DNA of 54,194 bases, from positions 1 to 54,194 of the forward strand of contig JAKRSD010000002.1 in assembly GCA_022402535.1 (NCBI GenBank). The letters are read 5' to 3'. This DNA is from Flavobacteriales bacterium. GTDB taxonomy: Bacteria; Bacteroidota; Bacteroidia; CAIKAF01. A program made the position numbers and the translations under genes. Below the pieces are notes generated by a model that worked only from the letters and a program-made list of their open reading frames with translations, was not told the DNA's origin and did not search any database. Shown in pieces: positions 8,413 to 41,182 of this stretch (position 1 is the stretch's first letter; each line of letters opens with the position of its first letter).

Positions 8413-9164
8413 TTTTTCTTTACCACGTTCAGCAAATTCAAAAGTTCTGCCGAGCGTTCTGAAGAAAGTGAAATCTGATGGGTATTGTTAATGATAAGTG
8501 AACCTCCGTCAGATTTAATCATATCGGTGATATAATCTACATTTACCAGAAAGGATTTGTGGCATCTGAAAAATTTGCTGCCGGGGATGGATACCATGTC
8601 TTCAAAGTTCTTGAGCGTTTTGCAAACGGTTATCGAAGAATTATCGGCAAGGTGAACATGTGTGTATGAGCCGTCGGCCTTGAAATACATGATTTGGTTC
8701 AAATCCACAAATTTGATCAGGTTGTTGGTGGGAAGGGCAATTTTTGTTGGAGTATTCGGATTCAGGTTGTTCTTAAGTTCTTTAAAATCATGTTTGATTT
8801 CCTGCTTCATAAAACGTTTTACCGCATTTTCCAATTCTTCGGGTTCAATCGGTTTGAGCAGATAATCAATAGCCGAAAGTTTAAAAGCCTGAATGGCATA
8901 ATGGTTATACGCCGTGGTGAAGATGATGGAAAACTCCACTTCATCGTCATTGAAAAAGTCGAGCAGTTCGAGACCGCTGTGTCCCGGCATTTCAATATCC
9001 AGAAAAACAAGATTGGGATTATGTTTTCGGATTGATTTTACTCCGTTCGGCAAATCTTTACATTCATCCAGCACCGTTATTTCGGGGCAATAGGTTTTCA
9101 GCATATTGTTCAATAATGCCCTTGCATGGGGTTCGTCGTCAATAATTATCGCTGTATAACTCAT
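8409..9164 (-). CDS. LytTR-family response regulator
   Basis: This 251-aa protein has a receiver domain (about 1-120) with IIIDDEPHAR and phospho-acceptor Asp56 (LVFLDIEMPG), with a conserved Lys in LLKPIEPEE. It is followed by a LytTR DNA-binding domain (about 145-251) showing the family words FFRCHKSFLVN and ISLSSERS. The start overlaps the stop of the upstream sensor kinase (ATGA, 9161-9164), so the pair is a coupled LytS/LytR-type system. The target promoter is unknown. The neighbouring convergent TonB receptor is a candidate only by proximity. Confidence 0.95.
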   Translation of the reverse strand: MSYTAIIIDDEPHARALLNNMLKTYCPEITVLDECKDLPNGVKSIRKHNPNLVFLDIEMPGHSGLELLDFFNDDEVEFSIIFTTAYNHYAIQAFKLSAIDYLLKPIEPEELENAVKRFMKQEIKHDFKELKNNLNPNTPTKIALPTNNLIKFVDLNQIMYFKADGSYTHVHLADNSSITVCKTLKNFEDMVSIPGSKFFRCHKSFLVNVDYITDMIKSDGGSLIINNTHQISLSSERSAELLNLLNVVKKN

Positions 9165-12070
9165 AAATGATTTGGTATTTGAATGATAACACGGGTTCCG
9201 GTGGGATTCCCGGCGGCAGAGTATAAGTCTTCTATAACAACACCTACTTTGTTTTCCTGACCCCCCCGGTTTAGTATTTCTAAGCGGGTGGCGTTGGCTT
9301 TGCTGGCAAATGAATTGTGTTTGTCTTTCCGGATTTTATTCAGTTCTTCCGACTTTTTTCTTCCGATTCCGTTGTCTTCTATAATCACCTGCAACACATT
9401 GTTGCTTAACGTAAATTGAATGTGGAGTGTTTTTTCTCCTTCTTTGTGCAGCAGGCCGTGTTTGAGCGCATTTTCAACATAAGGCTGAATGAGCATGGGC
9501 GGAAATTTGATGTTCTCCTGCTCAATGTTTTCCGAAAGATTTATGGAATAGGTGAAATCATTTCCAAACCGCATTTTTTCTAAATCCAGATATAACGTTA
9601 ATGCCGTTATTTCTTCCGAAAGAAAAATCAGTTCCCGTTCCGACATTTCTAAAATCATCCGGGTGAGCTTTGAAAATTTTGCCAGATAATTACCTGCATT
9701 TCGTTTATCATCAGAAAAAATAAAGGATTGAACCGTATTCAGTGCATTGTAAAAAAAGTGCGGATTCATCTGTGATTTGATAGATGTCAGCATGGATTTA
9801 CTCAGTTCTTTTTCAAGCTGCATTTTTTCTCTGGCCGCTTTGTTTTTTCTATTTAATTCCTTCGTTTTCAAGAAAAAAATCAGATAACCCAGAATTAAAA
9901 AAAGGAATAATATCAGACCGAAAAACCAATAGGTTTTCCAAAAAGGAGGTGTAATCCGGAAAAACACATAATCCATTGCAAAGGGTTTCCCCGTGTCACT
10001 GATTCCCAGCGATATTTTATATTTTCCGGGTGGGAGTTCCGGAAATCGTAAGGTTCTGGATTTATTGCTTAATTGCTGCCAGGGTCCCTCGTTTATGTTG
10101 TAATAAACGTAATGCAGCGAGTTGTTTCCAAAATCCAGCAAGGAATAGTTGATTTCAATATTATTGTGGGCATAATCAAAGGTTAAGTTTTTCACAGAAT
10201 CCTGTATTACACCATTCACGTATAAGCTGTTGATCCAAAATAGGGGAGTAACCTTGTTTTCTGATTTGTTGTCGGGTTGAATGCCTGAAATGATTTTATT
10301 GTCTTTAATCAGATACAGTTTGTTTTCAAACATGGTGATATCCGAAATATTACCCGAGGGAATTTTGTAGACGCTTTTGTTAAGTGCTTCTTTTTCTGTG
10401 TTTAATTCAATAATTGAATTGGAGGTAACGAGAAACAAATGTGTTTCATCGCTGAAGATTTTTTGAACATCATTTTCCTTCAGATTGAGTTTTTCGTTCA
10501 GGTTTTCCCATACTTTAAAGTTTTTACTGCGAATCAGCACTTTTTGATTGGTGAGTGCATAGAGATATCCATTTTTATAACTGAGGTTTGTCGCATATAC
10601 GGGCTGATTATTAATTCGGATTTCCTCATTCTTTCCGTCGGGAGTGCACTTTACAATGCCGGAATTGGTGGCAAAATAAATTTCGCCGTTGGGATTATAT
10701 GCTGTTGATTTTCCCCGGGTGCTTTTTATCAAACGGGAAATCGTTACTGTGGAATTGATTATTTTATTTTTCTCAAATGCATTATCCCATGAGTTTATGG
10801 AAGAGGATGTCGTGTATGGATTTAATAATAAACCGCAATAACCGGATGCGGCTATGGCATAATATTTTTCATCAATTCGGCTGATAGATTTTACCGCTCC
10901 CATCATTTCATATGTTGGGTTATGATTGCGTTCGTTCAGTACGGTAACTTTGTTCCCGCAGATGATTAAACTCTTGTATTGTTCATCATAATACAGTTTA
11001 CTGATTGCATGTCCTGAGGGGTCTTGAAAAATGGTTTTTTTATCCGTCATGAATTCAGATATCCATAACACTTCTCCATTTTGTGTTCCTAAATAAAAAC
11101 CATCTGCACACGTTACAATACTCGAAAACCGATATTCGGGCAGGCTATGTTTTTTGGTTGTCCAATCTGTAATTAACAGCAAACCCTCGCTTTGTGTACT
11201 TACCCAAATATTACCCTGCCTGTCTTTTATCACTTTCGACACATTTTTCCCTTTGAAATAGGGCAAACCGTCATTTTTCATAATTCCGTTGGGTGTTATA
11301 CCCACCACGCCTTCGGGAGAGCATAGCCAATACCCTTCATCGGTAAAAGATACCATCTGAATAAAGGAAGGTGATCGGGCCTCAAACAACGGCATTATGA
11401 GCCCATCTTTGAAGGTATATAGTTGATGGGATTTATTGGTCTTGGGGGCCAATACATTTTTTTTATTGTTTACAGTGTAAATTTTAAAATCATTAAACGC
11501 ATTACCTGCCGGTAATGCGTATGTAAATACGTTATGTTTTTTATTGATAACTCTTAGATTATTATCGGCAATCAGGTAGTAGAATTGTTCGTCGCTACCT
11601 GCATTTTGAATATTAGTCAGGTTTACCGGGATTTGCTTTTTAAGGGATAGGGTTTTTAAGTCGAAAACGTCTATTCCCTTTTTCTGTACCACAAAAAGTT
11701 CATCGTCCAATATTCCGTATGTAACAAAATACAAGGGTGAATTATGAGATAGAGGCTTCAGTTTTTCATTTTCTACAAAAAAGATAAATCCGTCAAAATT
11801 TTCATACCAAATCCGTCCGTATTTATCTTCAGAAAGGGCAGAACCGGCCGTGGTGGTCTGACTTGGCGAATAATAGGTTTTAAATTCAAACCCGTCGTAG
11901 CGGCTGATTCCCTCATCGCTTGCTATCCAGATATATCCTCTGCTGTCTTGGATGATATCATACACCGAATTGGAAGGTAGTCCCGAAGATTGATTGATGG
12001 AAATATAAAACGGATCCTGTGCAAAAGCCCGGGTGGTAAAAAGGAGCAAGAAGAACAGAAGACGTTTCAA
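9161..12070 (-). CDS. Beta-propeller sensor histidine kinase (LytS-type catalytic core)
   Basis: This 969-aa membrane kinase has a signal peptide (ending FAQ). Periplasmic two-component-regulator propeller repeats fill about 20-600 (SSGLPSNSVYDIIQD, SRGYIWIASDEGISRYDG). A Y_Y_Y domain spans about 610-700 (NEGPWQQL, PPGKYKISL). One membrane helix lies near 712-735. A short coiled coil precedes a His_kinase domain with QMNPHFFYNALN, and an HATPase domain follows (IQPYVENALKHG, IIEDNGIGR). The initiation codon is TTG (12068-12070). No ATG occurs in frame near it, and the signal peptide begins right there. It is coupled to the LytTR gene by a 4-bp overlap. The propeller suggests sensing of a periplasmic ligand, often a carbohydrate in related hybrid systems. 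Confidence 0.94.
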   Translation of the reverse strand: MKRLLFFLLLFTTRAFAQDPFYISINQSSGLPSNSVYDIIQDSRGYIWIASDEGISRYDGFEFKTYYSPSQTTTAGSALSEDKYGRIWYENFDGFIFFVENEKLKPLSHNSPLYFVTYGILDDELFVVQKKGIDVFDLKTLSLKKQIPVNLTNIQNAGSDEQFYYLIADNNLRVINKKHNVFTYALPAGNAFNDFKIYTVNNKKNVLAPKTNKSHQLYTFKDGLIMPLFEARSPSFIQMVSFTDEGYWLCSPEGVVGITPNGIMKNDGLPYFKGKNVSKVIKDRQGNIWVSTQSEGLLLITDWTTKKHSLPEYRFSSIVTCADGFYLGTQNGEVLWISEFMTDKKTIFQDPSGHAISKLYYDEQYKSLIICGNKVTVLNERNHNPTYEMMGAVKSISRIDEKYYAIAASGYCGLLLNPYTTSSSINSWDNAFEKNKIINSTVTISRLIKSTRGKSTAYNPNGEIYFATNSGIVKCTPDGKNEEIRINNQPVYATNLSYKNGYLYALTNQKVLIRSKNFKVWENLNEKLNLKENDVQKIFSDETHLFLVTSNSIIELNTEKEALNKSVYKIPSGNISDITMFENKLYLIKDNKIISGIQPDNKSENKVTPLFWINSLYVNGVIQDSVKNLTFDYAHNNIEINYSLLDFGNNSLHYVYYNINEGPWQQLSNKSRTLRFPELPPGKYKISLGISDTGKPFAMDYVFFRITPPFWKTYWFFGLILFLFLILGYLIFFLKTKELNRKNKAAREKMQLEKELSKSMLTSIKSQMNPHFFYNALNTVQSFIFSDDKRNAGNYLAKFSKLTRMILEMSERELIFLSEEITALTLYLDLEKMRFGNDFTYSINLSENIEQENIKFPPMLIQPYVENALKHGLLHKEGEKTLHIQFTLSNNVLQVIIEDNGIGRKKSEELNKIRKDKHNSFASKANATRLEILNRGGQENKVGVVIEDLYSAAGNPTGTRVIIQIPNHL

Positions 12071-38003: not shown

Positions 38004-39551
38004 ATGGAGCTACTTATTCTATTTGCAGTCGGTGCACTCGTATTGTTTATCACGTTTGCTGCCATTTTATCGCGCTACAAACGTTGTCCTTCGGACAAAA
38101 TTCTGGTTATCTACGGTAAAACCGGAAAAAATAAAGAAGGTGGAATTTCTTCGGCCAAATGTATTCACGGGGGGGCTGCCTTTATCTGGCCGGTGTTTCA
38201 GAGTTATGCGTTTTTGGATTTAAAGCCTATTTCTATTGAAACATTGCTGACCAATGCGCTTTCTAAACAAAATATCCGTGTGGATGTACCCAGTCGATTT
38301 ACGGTAGCCATCAGTTCTGAATCAGATGTGATGAGCAATGCCGCCGAGCGTCTGTTGGGGTTAACGCCTGGGCAAATTCAGGAATTGGCCAAGGATATCC
38401 TGTTTGGTCAGTTGCGTCTGGTGATTGCCACCATGGATATTGAAGAAATCAATGCCGACCGGGATAAATTCCTGACCAACGTTGCCAAAAACGTAGATAC
38501 CGAATTGCGCAAAATCGGTTTGAAACTGATTAACGTAAACGTAACCGACTTACGGGATGAGTCGGGATATATTGAAGCATTGGGTAAGGAGGCAGCAGCC
38601 AAAGCGATCAACGAAGCCAAGAAAAGCGTAGCTGAGCAGGAGCGTTATGGTGAAATCGGTAAAGCCGAAGCCGACCGGGATAAAGATATCCGTATTGCGG
38701 AAGCTGAAAGAGATCGGGATTCGCAGATAGCCAGTGCGGTAAAAGACCGCGAAATTTTGATTGCCGCCGCCAAACGCGATGAGGCTATCGGAAAAACCAA
38801 TGCAGACCGGGATACGCGTATTAAAGTGTCGGAGAATAATGCCACGGCGGTAAACGGAGAGAACCAGGCCAAAATAGCCATTGCCCAATCGGATGCCGAG
38901 CGCCGTGAGCGCGAAGCGGAAGCCATGCGCAGAGCCGTAGCAGCTGAAAAAGTACAGCAAGCCATGGCATTGGAAGCGGCGTACAGCGCAGAGAGATCTG
39001 CCGAGATGGCCCGTGCCGAACGCGAAAGAGCTTCGCAGAAAGCCAATATTGTGGTACCAGCTGAAATTGAAAAAGAAAAAGCCATCATTGATGCCGAAGC
39101 GGAAGCCGAAAGATTGCGCCGTATGGCCAAAGGGGAGGCTGATGCGATTTTTGCCAAAATGGAAGCCGAAGCCAAGGGTATTTTTGAAATTCTGACTAAA
39201 CAGGCCGAAGGATACGACCGCATTGTGAAAGCCGCCGGCGGCGATCCACGCAATGCCGTTACTTTCCTCATAGCCGATAAACTTCCCGAACTGGTGAAAA
39301 CCCAGGTGGAAGCGGTTAAAAACATTAAGATTGATAAAATCACCGTGTGGGACGGCAACGGTTCCGGAGCTAACGGAAACACCAATACGGCCAATTTTAT
39401 TTCGGGCATGATGAAATCCGTTCCGCCCTTAAACGATTTGTTTAACATGGCGGGCATGGAACTGCCTTCGTATCTCAAAGGCCAAAAAAGCGGAGCTGAA
39501 ACACCTGCCACGGAAGATAGCGGCACTGCTGCTCCTGAAGGAAAAGAATAA
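38004..39551 (+). CDS. Flotillin-family protein (YqiK/FloT type)
   Basis: This 515-aa membrane-scaffold protein has an N-terminal hydrophobic segment (about 3-22). An SPFH/Band-7 domain spans about 25-200 (KISIETLL-like strands, GLTPGQIQELAKDILFGQLR, INADRDKFL). A long coiled coil of about 190-400 has abundant EA/ER repeats (AEADRDKDIRIAEAERDRD). A C-terminal flotillin oligomerisation segment is LVKTQVEAVKNIKIDKITVWDG. Flotillins form detergent-resistant microdomains with NfeD partners. It forms a two-gene operon with the upstream NfeD gene, followed by a strong terminator. Confidence 0.95.
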   Translation: MELLILFAVGALVLFITFAAILSRYKRCPSDKILVIYGKTGKNKEGGISSAKCIHGGAAFIWPVFQSYAFLDLKPISIETLLTNALSKQNIRVDVPSRFTVAISSESDVMSNAAERLLGLTPGQIQELAKDILFGQLRLVIATMDIEEINADRDKFLTNVAKNVDTELRKIGLKLINVNVTDLRDESGYIEALGKEAAAKAINEAKKSVAEQERYGEIGKAEADRDKDIRIAEAERDRDSQIASAVKDREILIAAAKRDEAIGKTNADRDTRIKVSENNATAVNGENQAKIAIAQSDAERREREAEAMRRAVAAEKVQQAMALEAAYSAERSAEMARAERERASQKANIVVPAEIEKEKAIIDAEAEAERLRRMAKGEADAIFAKMEAEAKGIFEILTKQAEGYDRIVKAAGGDPRNAVTFLIADKLPELVKTQVEAVKNIKIDKITVWDGNGSGANGNTNTANFISGMMKSVPPLNDLFNMAGMELPSYLKGQKSGAETPATEDSGTAAPEGKE

Positions 39552-39565
39552 CGAAATGAAACGTA

Positions 39566-39601
39566 TAAAAAAGCCCGGAAGATTTCTTTCGGGCTTTTTT
39601 T
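39566..39601 (+). terminator. Terminator after the NfeD-flotillin operon
   Basis: A stem AAGCCCGGAA/TTTCGGGCTT closes with a T-run of seven, 15 nt after the flotillin stop. The A-run on the other side would let it work in both directions. Confidence 0.9.
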
Positions 39602-39641
39602 GCTTTACCAGCAATGAACGACAAAAAAGGAAATTCGAGGA

Positions 39642-39672
39642 TTTGATAATTACTATTCCTTTTTTACTTTTG
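39642..39672 (+). promoter_or_regulatory. Promoter of the AT-rich two-gene island (TTTG-N19-TACTTTTG)
   Basis: -33 TTTG (39642-39645) and -7 TACTTTTG (39665-39672) are 19 nt apart, a full-consensus Bacteroidetes promoter. It implies a 5' leader of about 75-80 nt before the first gene, which is preceded by an AAAGAGGG ribosome-binding sequence at 39743-39750. Confidence 0.8.
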
Positions 39673-39756
39673 GTTTATTACCAATTCTTGCTCGACAAGG
39701 CAGTCACTGTTTTTTTATGATTCGAAGTTTTTATAAACTGATAAAGAGGGCTATAT

Positions 39757-40623
39757 GTGCAAAATAATATGATTTTTTATAGAGATATTGAGCGTATAAA
39801 TAAATTGGATTATATTATGATTGAGACAATATTTGATTTAAGAAAAATTGACAAAGAAATTTCTGAAGACTTTGATAAAGCAATAAGTCATTTACACTTT
39901 TTACTTTTCGAGAGCGATTATAAACATACGGCTGAAATTTGCTTCATGTATATGAATAGCACGGATTCTTTAAAGAATTCAATTTTAATTTGTGCAGAAA
40001 ATGATGATATTTATAGTGCTTGTGTTTTATATCGTTCAATTAATGAGCATTATTTAAGATTTAAATATTTTTTTTTAAACTACTCAATACAGAAGAAAGA
40101 TAGTTATGCTTTACTTTTTAGAACTTCTTTAGATTTTGTTGAAAAGCGTTCATTCTTAAATGCTGTAAAAAGTGCAAGAGATATTAAGAAACAAGTTGCA
40201 AAAACTTCAGACGAAATATGGGAAGAATTATTTCAATCAAATAAAAGTTTTGAAAACATCACGAAAAATGAAGTTGTTGAATTCTCAAAAAGTCTTTCAA
40301 TAAAAAATATATTAGGTTATTTAGAATCAACATTTAAGAATGATGATTTTGAGGAAGATACTTTTTTACAAGAAATGATAGTCGAATACTCTCTACTATC
40401 ATCCTTTGTTCATGGAGGTCTTCACGCTCACAAAGAATTAATAAAGGTGGAAATGTCTGATAATCGACAAAAAATATATCTTGATATTTGTGGTCCTGCT
40501 TTACAGATTGCAACATCAATAAAAATTACTAGTTATTTAATATTGCACCATGCTAAAGCAGACTTTTTGGAGATGTATTTTAATTCACATAAATTATTTG
40601 AAAAAATAAAAAAAACAATTTAA
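39757..40623 (+). CDS. Helical protein resembling DUF5677 proteins
   Basis: This 288-aa, AT-rich gene encodes a soluble, almost entirely helical protein. The segment YSACVLYRSINEHYLRFKYFF followed later by EYSLLSSFVHGGLHAH resembles DUF5677-type proteins, a poorly characterised group. I hold this at family-resemblance level only. GTG at 39757 fits the AAAGAGGG ribosome-binding site (6 nt), but ATG at 39769 is an alternative start. Codon use is strongly A/T-biased compared with neighbours on both sides, suggesting acquisition by transfer. It ends 1 nt before the GIY-YIG-like gene, so the two are co-translated. Confidence 0.75.
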   Translation: MQNNMIFYRDIERINKLDYIMIETIFDLRKIDKEISEDFDKAISHLHFLLFESDYKHTAEICFMYMNSTDSLKNSILICAENDDIYSACVLYRSINEHYLRFKYFFLNYSIQKKDSYALLFRTSLDFVEKRSFLNAVKSARDIKKQVAKTSDEIWEELFQSNKSFENITKNEVVEFSKSLSIKNILGYLESTFKNDDFEEDTFLQEMIVEYSLLSSFVHGGLHAHKELIKVEMSDNRQKIYLDICGPALQIATSIKITSYLILHHAKADFLEMYFNSHKLFEKIKKTI

Positions 40624-40624
40624 A

Positions 40625-41182
40625 ATGATTATGTTGGATATTAAAGAAAACATTGATAGGAAAGCCAAAGAATTAAATCGGTTAGCTAAAGAACTTCATA
40701 AAATTTCAATTCAATGGGAAAATCCATTACATATAAAATGTACTGAACTTGAGGAGAAGAAAGAAGAACTTGCTTCCGTTTTAAGCAATTCTGGAAAACA
40801 AAAATATTTACCTGCAGTTTACTTTTTTGAAATTTTGAGTGCAGAAAGTGGTAATGAAGTAGTCAATATGTTGGTAAAATTTAAAAACAAAAAAGAACAT
40901 AAAAGAAAATGCCCTCTCATTGATTCAAGAAGGGGAGATTCAAAATTTCTATATTGTGGGAGTGTTAAAAAAGGTCTCCATAAACGCTTCATCCAACATT
41001 TGGGATTTGGAAGTGATTCCACTTATGCGCTTAATCTGAAATTTTGGGCAAAAACAAACAATCTTGAATTTTTATTTCATTATGCTTGGTTAAATACTGA
41101 TCAAAATGTTTGTACAGAATTGGTTGAATCGGCATTAGCTGAAAAATTAAAGCCGCTTGTAGGGAAATTAACCAGAATATAG
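40625..41182 (+). CDS. Small GIY-YIG-like nuclease-fold protein
   Basis: This 185-aa protein has a helical N-terminus (about 1-58) followed by a GIY-YIG-like core. The first strand is AVYFFEI (65-70), the second strand FLYCGS (108-113), then Arg121 and His125 in HKRFIQHLG. Glu168 lies in the downstream helix (LVESALAEKL), and KPLVGK (176-181) stands at the place of the family's Asn-containing end. The spacing between the two strands is long (about 40 residues), so this is a divergent member. It is encoded 1 nt after the helical gene and shares its AT-rich composition. A role in DNA cleavage, repair or defence is inferred from fold and context. Confidence 0.7.
   Translation: MIMLDIKENIDRKAKELNRLAKELHKISIQWENPLHIKCTELEEKKEELASVLSNSGKQKYLPAVYFFEILSAESGNEVVNMLVKFKNKKEHKRKCPLIDSRRGDSKFLYCGSVKKGLHKRFIQHLGFGSDSTYALNLKFWAKTNNLEFLFHYAWLNTDQNVCTELVESALAEKLKPLVGKLTRI

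Follow-up and report, generated by a model that had tools for sequence, protein, structure and literature searches.

The first 54,194 nucleotides of contig JAKRSD010000002.1 from a Flavobacteriales bacterium (assembly GCA_022402535.1, forward strand), referred to here as the window, carry two small adjacent genes behind a gene for a flotillin-like protein. Gene A (positions 39757–40623, plus strand, GTG start, 288 aa) encodes a DUF5677 protein, and gene B (40625–41182, plus strand, ATG start, 185 aa) a predicted divergent GIY-YIG-like nuclease; the two are co-directional and separated by a single nucleotide. With a probability of roughly one half, they represent an acquired defence-type two-gene operon in which B would be a modular nuclease effector. 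The B family recurs behind many unrelated partners, usually as the next co-directional gene, and not as one half of a fixed pair.

Common annotation resources say little about B. No Pfam, NCBIfam or PADLOC family matched it, the PADLOC component models matched none of six homologues either, and neither the direct comparison with PF01541 (GIY-YIG) nor a sequence-profile search of the PDB gave a match. PHROG 19050, a phage family of unannotated function, matches residues 52–181 (9.2e-12). The family was sampled as 23 non-redundant loci, comprising the window, 6 loci from a single-sequence search and 6, 9 and 1 from further searches. Three loci of a later B search were left out as duplicating genomes of the first search, two rows were dropped from the counts (G213, L008/L016, a 63-aa fragment; G312, L009, with six stops), and the distant relatives L100–L104 stand outside this set. 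Identical in all 23 members are Y66, Y110, G112, R121, H125, T133, L138, E168, P177 and G180. These include the residues by which the GIY-YIG superfamily is recognized, namely the Tyr of GIY, the Tyr-x-Gly of YIG (110–112), the Arg (R121) and the Glu (E168), and the GIY-YIG-like core that a first-pass annotation of this DNA had pointed out, H125 included, is thus a property of the whole family.

It is important to note that the agreement is not complete. Between Y66 and Y110 there are 43 residues, a spacing that presumably exceeds the canonical GIY-YIG value. The classical five-motif signature also includes an Asn, which we take to lie twelve residues after the Glu. In B this place is occupied by G180 (codons 180–181, Gly-Lys, 41162–41167, plus strand), 12 residues past the catalytic-type Glu. 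The E168–G180 spacing equals that between E142 and N154 of Eco29kI, where E142 is named in the title of the structure match and N154 is our assumption. Since G180 is present in 23/23 members, the exchange of Asn for Gly is a trait of the B family, and for lack of the Asn we term B a divergent relative, expected to work like a GIY-YIG nuclease, and not a classical member. Links to recognized members exist at the sequence level. The B-like protein of L100, on a fecal scaffold, matches the B profile at 6.5e-21 and scores 22.8 against PF01541 (cut-off 22.6), and the members on Vibrio plasmids (2.1e-13 to 6.6e-13) are annotated as GIY-YIG nucleases. The Vibrio, L028 and L030 members score under the PF01541 cut-off, and the L029 member has a weak match to the excinuclease Cho (E 0.0019). 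The B tree gives no sister for the window sequence, whose branch is long and unplaced.

The structural evidence comes from an AlphaFold2 model of B built from 13 sequences (predicted local distance difference test score, pLDDT, 86.3; predicted template modelling score, pTM, 0.82). In a VIA-align comparison the first nine entries were all GIY-YIG proteins, with Z between 5.4 and 7.3: T4 EndoII (7.3), CMoRE/PD-T4-3 (6.7 and 6.5; the former, 9u7u, being the second-best match and extending across 97 residues), UvrC domains (6.1, 5.8 and 5.6) and R.Eco29kI (5.9, 5.5 and 5.4). The next entry, a designed protein, had a Z of 4.2. Residue 181 of the model pairs with residue 131 of EndoII and residue 155 of Eco29kI; if the residue roles are as we assume, the alignment sets E168 unshifted on the catalytic Glu of both enzymes and G180 on the usual Asn. 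The placement of B in a divergent branch of the GIY-YIG superfamily, by its predicted fold and its Tyr/Tyr/Arg/His/Glu constellation, is well supported.

The neighbours of B change from one locus to another. A same-strand gene lies within 45 nt on the 5′ side of B at 14 of the 23 loci and on the 3′ side at 4. At eight loci B stands next to AbiEii, putAbiC, type I restriction-modification (RM) or SMEK-NACHT genes, and it is in these neighbours that the defence-like style noticed in the first-pass annotation is found. For instance, AbiEii lies upstream of B at L034 and L036, and L035 has the order AbiEii, DUF4238, B; all three are Flavobacteriaceae AbiE-type operons (DUF6088-like, AbiEii) with a B-type nuclease as an additional gene. 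putAbiC is the partner at L025 and L039, HsdS precedes B and a type I restriction subunit follows it at L015, HsdM lies two genes upstream at L038, and SMEK-NACHT is found downstream at L031. Other neighbours are HMUDK_hel (L041, the same gene as in L010), a serine recombinase ahead of B (L014) and PAD_porph (L040). At E ≤ 1e-5, PADLOC models matched 5 of 10 hand-picked B neighbours vs 1 of 10 window genes, a rough control and a suggestive comparison only, given that the neighbours are non-random and were scanned in part. Near the B-type gene of L027, and divergent from it, is a Schlafen-type helicase (8796–10241) whose N-terminal part is a classical GIY-YIG domain.

Gene A belongs to DUF5677 (PF18928; 28.6 bits vs a curated cut-off of 27.1, residues 74–230), in agreement with the family that had been guessed for it. 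Across 15 aligned DUF5677 proteins, R93 and H219 are invariant and E97 nearly so (gene A numbering). The start region of the gene offers an alternative ATG at 39769 and has an in-frame stop upstream at 39742. The best PADLOC match of A, PDC-S52 (E 0.034), is too weak to count as a component model match; a PDB sequence-profile search for DUF5677 gave no match, and the literature searches turned up one paper naming the domain and no functional paper on this family. DUF5677 is present in 17 of 375 class genomes, counting the source genome, and also in the E. coli control. Its gene neighbours are varied, and at L078 (6527–7297) a DUF5677 gene adjoins an AbiV gene (PF18728, E 1.9e-18).

The combination of the two genes was seen only in the window. 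No B homologue was found in any of 21 other DUF5677 regions (19 from 16 other genomes, plus L047 and L048), of which L086, L088 and L093 lie on short contigs where a partner could be missed, and no DUF5677 gene at the 22 other B loci within the DNA stretches examined. A fixed DUF5677 plus GIY-YIG system was rejected on these grounds. The first-pass annotation had proposed a recurring pair of a nuclease and a helical partner, to be abandoned if the homologues never co-occur; this is nearly what was found, and B recurs behind many partners instead.

Several features argue that A and B were acquired horizontally, a conclusion that we consider well supported by the composition, the absence of same-family homologues and the variability of the site. 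The GC content is 25.6% in A (third-position GC, GC3, 0.18) and 30.6% in B (GC3 0.22), the two lowest values among 40 non-overlapping window open reading frames (ORFs) of at least 150 aa each (mean 41.3%, standard deviation 5.0). No homologue of either gene was found in the 15 same-family genomes searched. Across the class, B is present in 9 of 395 genomes (single-sequence search) and A in 3 of 395, the source genome being counted in both cases. Two relatives have a close flotillin, and the slot that follows it holds a Fic gene (G225, L055:3242–3799) or an unrelated 688-aa protein with no Pfam family (G198, L054:4672–6738), and A and B are absent from the stretches read there. The slot is thus variable, and a true insertion hotspot would rest on these two relatives.

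The flotillin-like gene of the window (38004–39551, named by eye) is followed by an intrinsic terminator (39561–39604, plus strand), a hairpin of −22.7 kcal/mol with a T-run. Ahead of A lies a putative Bacteroidota-type promoter (39642–39672, plus strand) with a −33 TTTG, N19 and a −7 TACTTTTG, an exact fit to what we take to be the Bacteroidota −33/−7 consensus. When these 205 bp were simulated with an order-1 Markov model, 1.7% of the samples contained a match of this type on one strand. The AT-rich island, the single-nucleotide gap, the full-consensus promoter, the terminator of the host gene and the horizontal gain had all been proposed in the first-pass annotation, and each of them stands. 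Downstream of B, in the opposite direction, there is a methyltransferase-like gene (named by eye), the remaining window genes look by eye like ordinary chromosomal genes, and no tRNA was found in the window.

The search for B on mobile elements had a limited yield. With window A, window B and the B of L036 as queries, no plasmid or phage homologue was found at E 1e-3 to 1e-2. Under relaxed thresholds the L100 scaffold appeared, as did an unconvincing match to a tail protein. The L100 protein, used as query, reached Vibrio and Massilia plasmids. Scans of viral contigs with A and the L100 protein gave no relative, and one scan of genome contigs using window B as query gave no match. The L100 record (MT835507.1, 3619–5243) is labelled as phage and looks bacterial; in it a B-type GIY-YIG gene comes after that of a WYL/WCX regulator and adjoins a sirtuin-like gene (by eye). 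The B-type nuclease of the Vibrio plasmid (L101, 6824–7276) belongs to an array that also contains DUF3265 genes and two type II toxin-antitoxin pairs and is reminiscent of integron cassettes. On the Massilia plasmid (L102, 7172–7450) a shortened B-like ORF adjoins the gene of a putative methyltransferase associated with phosphorothioation, and the annotated coding sequence lies on the strand opposite to this ORF.

Among known enzymes, R.Eco29kI and T4 EndoII resemble B in fold and in the Tyr/Tyr/Arg/His/Glu pattern with its RxxxH spacing, the residue roles of Eco29kI being presumed. Unlike these two, B has Gly in place of Asn and its operon contains no cognate methyltransferase gene. GIY-YIG nucleases in defence are already known (PMC9519451). 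CMoRE is a single-gene GIY-YIG defence nuclease that cuts phage DNA directly (PMC12923530), and PD-T4-3 and PD-lambda-1 are further examples (PMC10952713). CMoRE/PD-T4-3, a type IV modification-dependent restriction endonuclease, shares with B the GIY-YIG catalytic domain and the anti-phage setting. In contrast to it, B consists of the nuclease domain and an N-terminal extension only, ends at the nuclease core without the C-terminal modification-sensing domain, and has a partner gene. SNIPE is described as a membrane-bound single-polypeptide DUF4041-GIY-YIG nuclease with a transmembrane segment that also cuts phage DNA directly (PMC13190303); it resembles B in the defence use of a GIY-YIG nuclease with variable targeting parts. 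Unlike SNIPE, A and B have no DUF4041 match and no strongly hydrophobic stretch (hydropathy maxima over 19 residues of 1.18 and 0.79, respectively). Stand-alone URI (GIY-YIG) nucleases bordering Dnd systems have been proposed to be indiscriminate backup suicide effectors (PMC10853773) and, like B, appear there as solo GIY-YIG-type genes flanking unrelated defence operons; the shortened B-like ORF next to a phosphorothioation-associated gene on the Massilia plasmid is a further likeness. In Bacteroidota, by contrast, B is partnered with Abi, type I RM and DUF5677 genes. No paper on the B family was found by title or abstract among open-licence PMC articles on GIY-YIG in Abi, anti-phage and integron-cassette contexts. 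A partner-switching nuclease family takes the place of the fixed pair.

We infer an anti-phage function for the operon, and for A a role in controlling B. B would be a metal-dependent nuclease, its cutting of DNA being predicted from the fold and the residues, and the partner co-expressed with it would supply infection sensing, targeting or restraint. In the window, A may hold B silent or guide it to its target, and phage infection would release or direct B to cut DNA, either that of the phage or, if B is a backup suicide effector, any DNA. As B has no recognizable sensing domain, control by the partner or backup killing is favoured. A broader proposal, which we put forward tentatively and think rather less probable than not, is that B founds an undescribed GIY-YIG branch, marked by the invariant Gly for Asn, the long GIY-YIG spacer and conserved T/L/W positions, and that abortive-infection and restriction systems of many unrelated kinds would use it as a plug-in nuclease effector, with the DUF5677 protein of the window as one interchangeable infection sensor.

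Several observations weigh against a defence operon with B as its effector. The replacement of Asn by Gly may have altered the activity of B. All its VIA-align Z values lie below the caution line of 8 of the tool, and a plain Foldseek search of the model against the PDB gave nothing at E ≤ 0.001 and no GIY-YIG protein among the 50 matches listed; the structural case, and with it the fold check that had been suggested for the second protein, consequently rests on the Z gap together with the motif agreement and the sequence links. For A, single-sequence structure prediction reached a pLDDT of only 33.6, which is no usable model. The pair is unique in the sample, which leaves a dependence of B on A conjectural. 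Fifteen of the 23 B loci have no recognized defence neighbour, their neighbours having been scanned in part, and inspection by eye recognized no further defence gene in the window.

Some of these points would also suit two independent cargo genes sharing one promoter, where the DUF5677 protein has a job of its own and B is a stand-alone restriction or backup nuclease without contact with A. The single occurrence of the pair, the lack of relationship among the B partners and the 9 of 23 B genes with no same-strand upstream gene within 45 nt all agree with this possibility, which we regard as rather less probable than not. The 1-nt coupling here and the 14/23 tight upstream couplings suggest that it is of importance to express the genes together, although the packing of operons could by itself account for them. 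It is improbable that the two genes form a toxin-antitoxin-like addiction unit, kept for itself and not for phage defence, in which B is a DNA-damaging toxin restrained by A. A small acquired two-gene operon would fit such a unit, as would the two type II toxin-antitoxin pairs in the array of the Vibrio homologue and the type IV toxin AbiEii upstream of B at three loci; yet the partners are unrelated, which leaves no common antitoxin, and L031, L033 and L027 are among the B genes without a same-strand upstream partner. Least probable of all is that B is a GIY-YIG enzyme of a selfish (homing) or repair (UvrC/Cho-like) type that lies beside Abi genes by chance. The Cho match of the L029 member and the serine recombinase ahead of the L014 member point in this direction, but the 185-aa B terminates at the nuclease core, eight of the 23 loci are at defence genes, and inspection of loci by eye brought up no homing context, introns and inteins not having been searched for.

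With a modular effector as the favoured interpretation of B, a small unannotated family is now tied to a nuclease fold, and one solo nuclease type recurs as an attachment of AbiE, AbiC, type I RM, NACHT and DUF5677 genes. If B is indeed a plug-in effector with interchangeable sensors, DUF5677 gains a proposed role, which could be tested; if it is functional, B would explain the added killing or DNA-cutting power of several Bacteroidota Abi operons.
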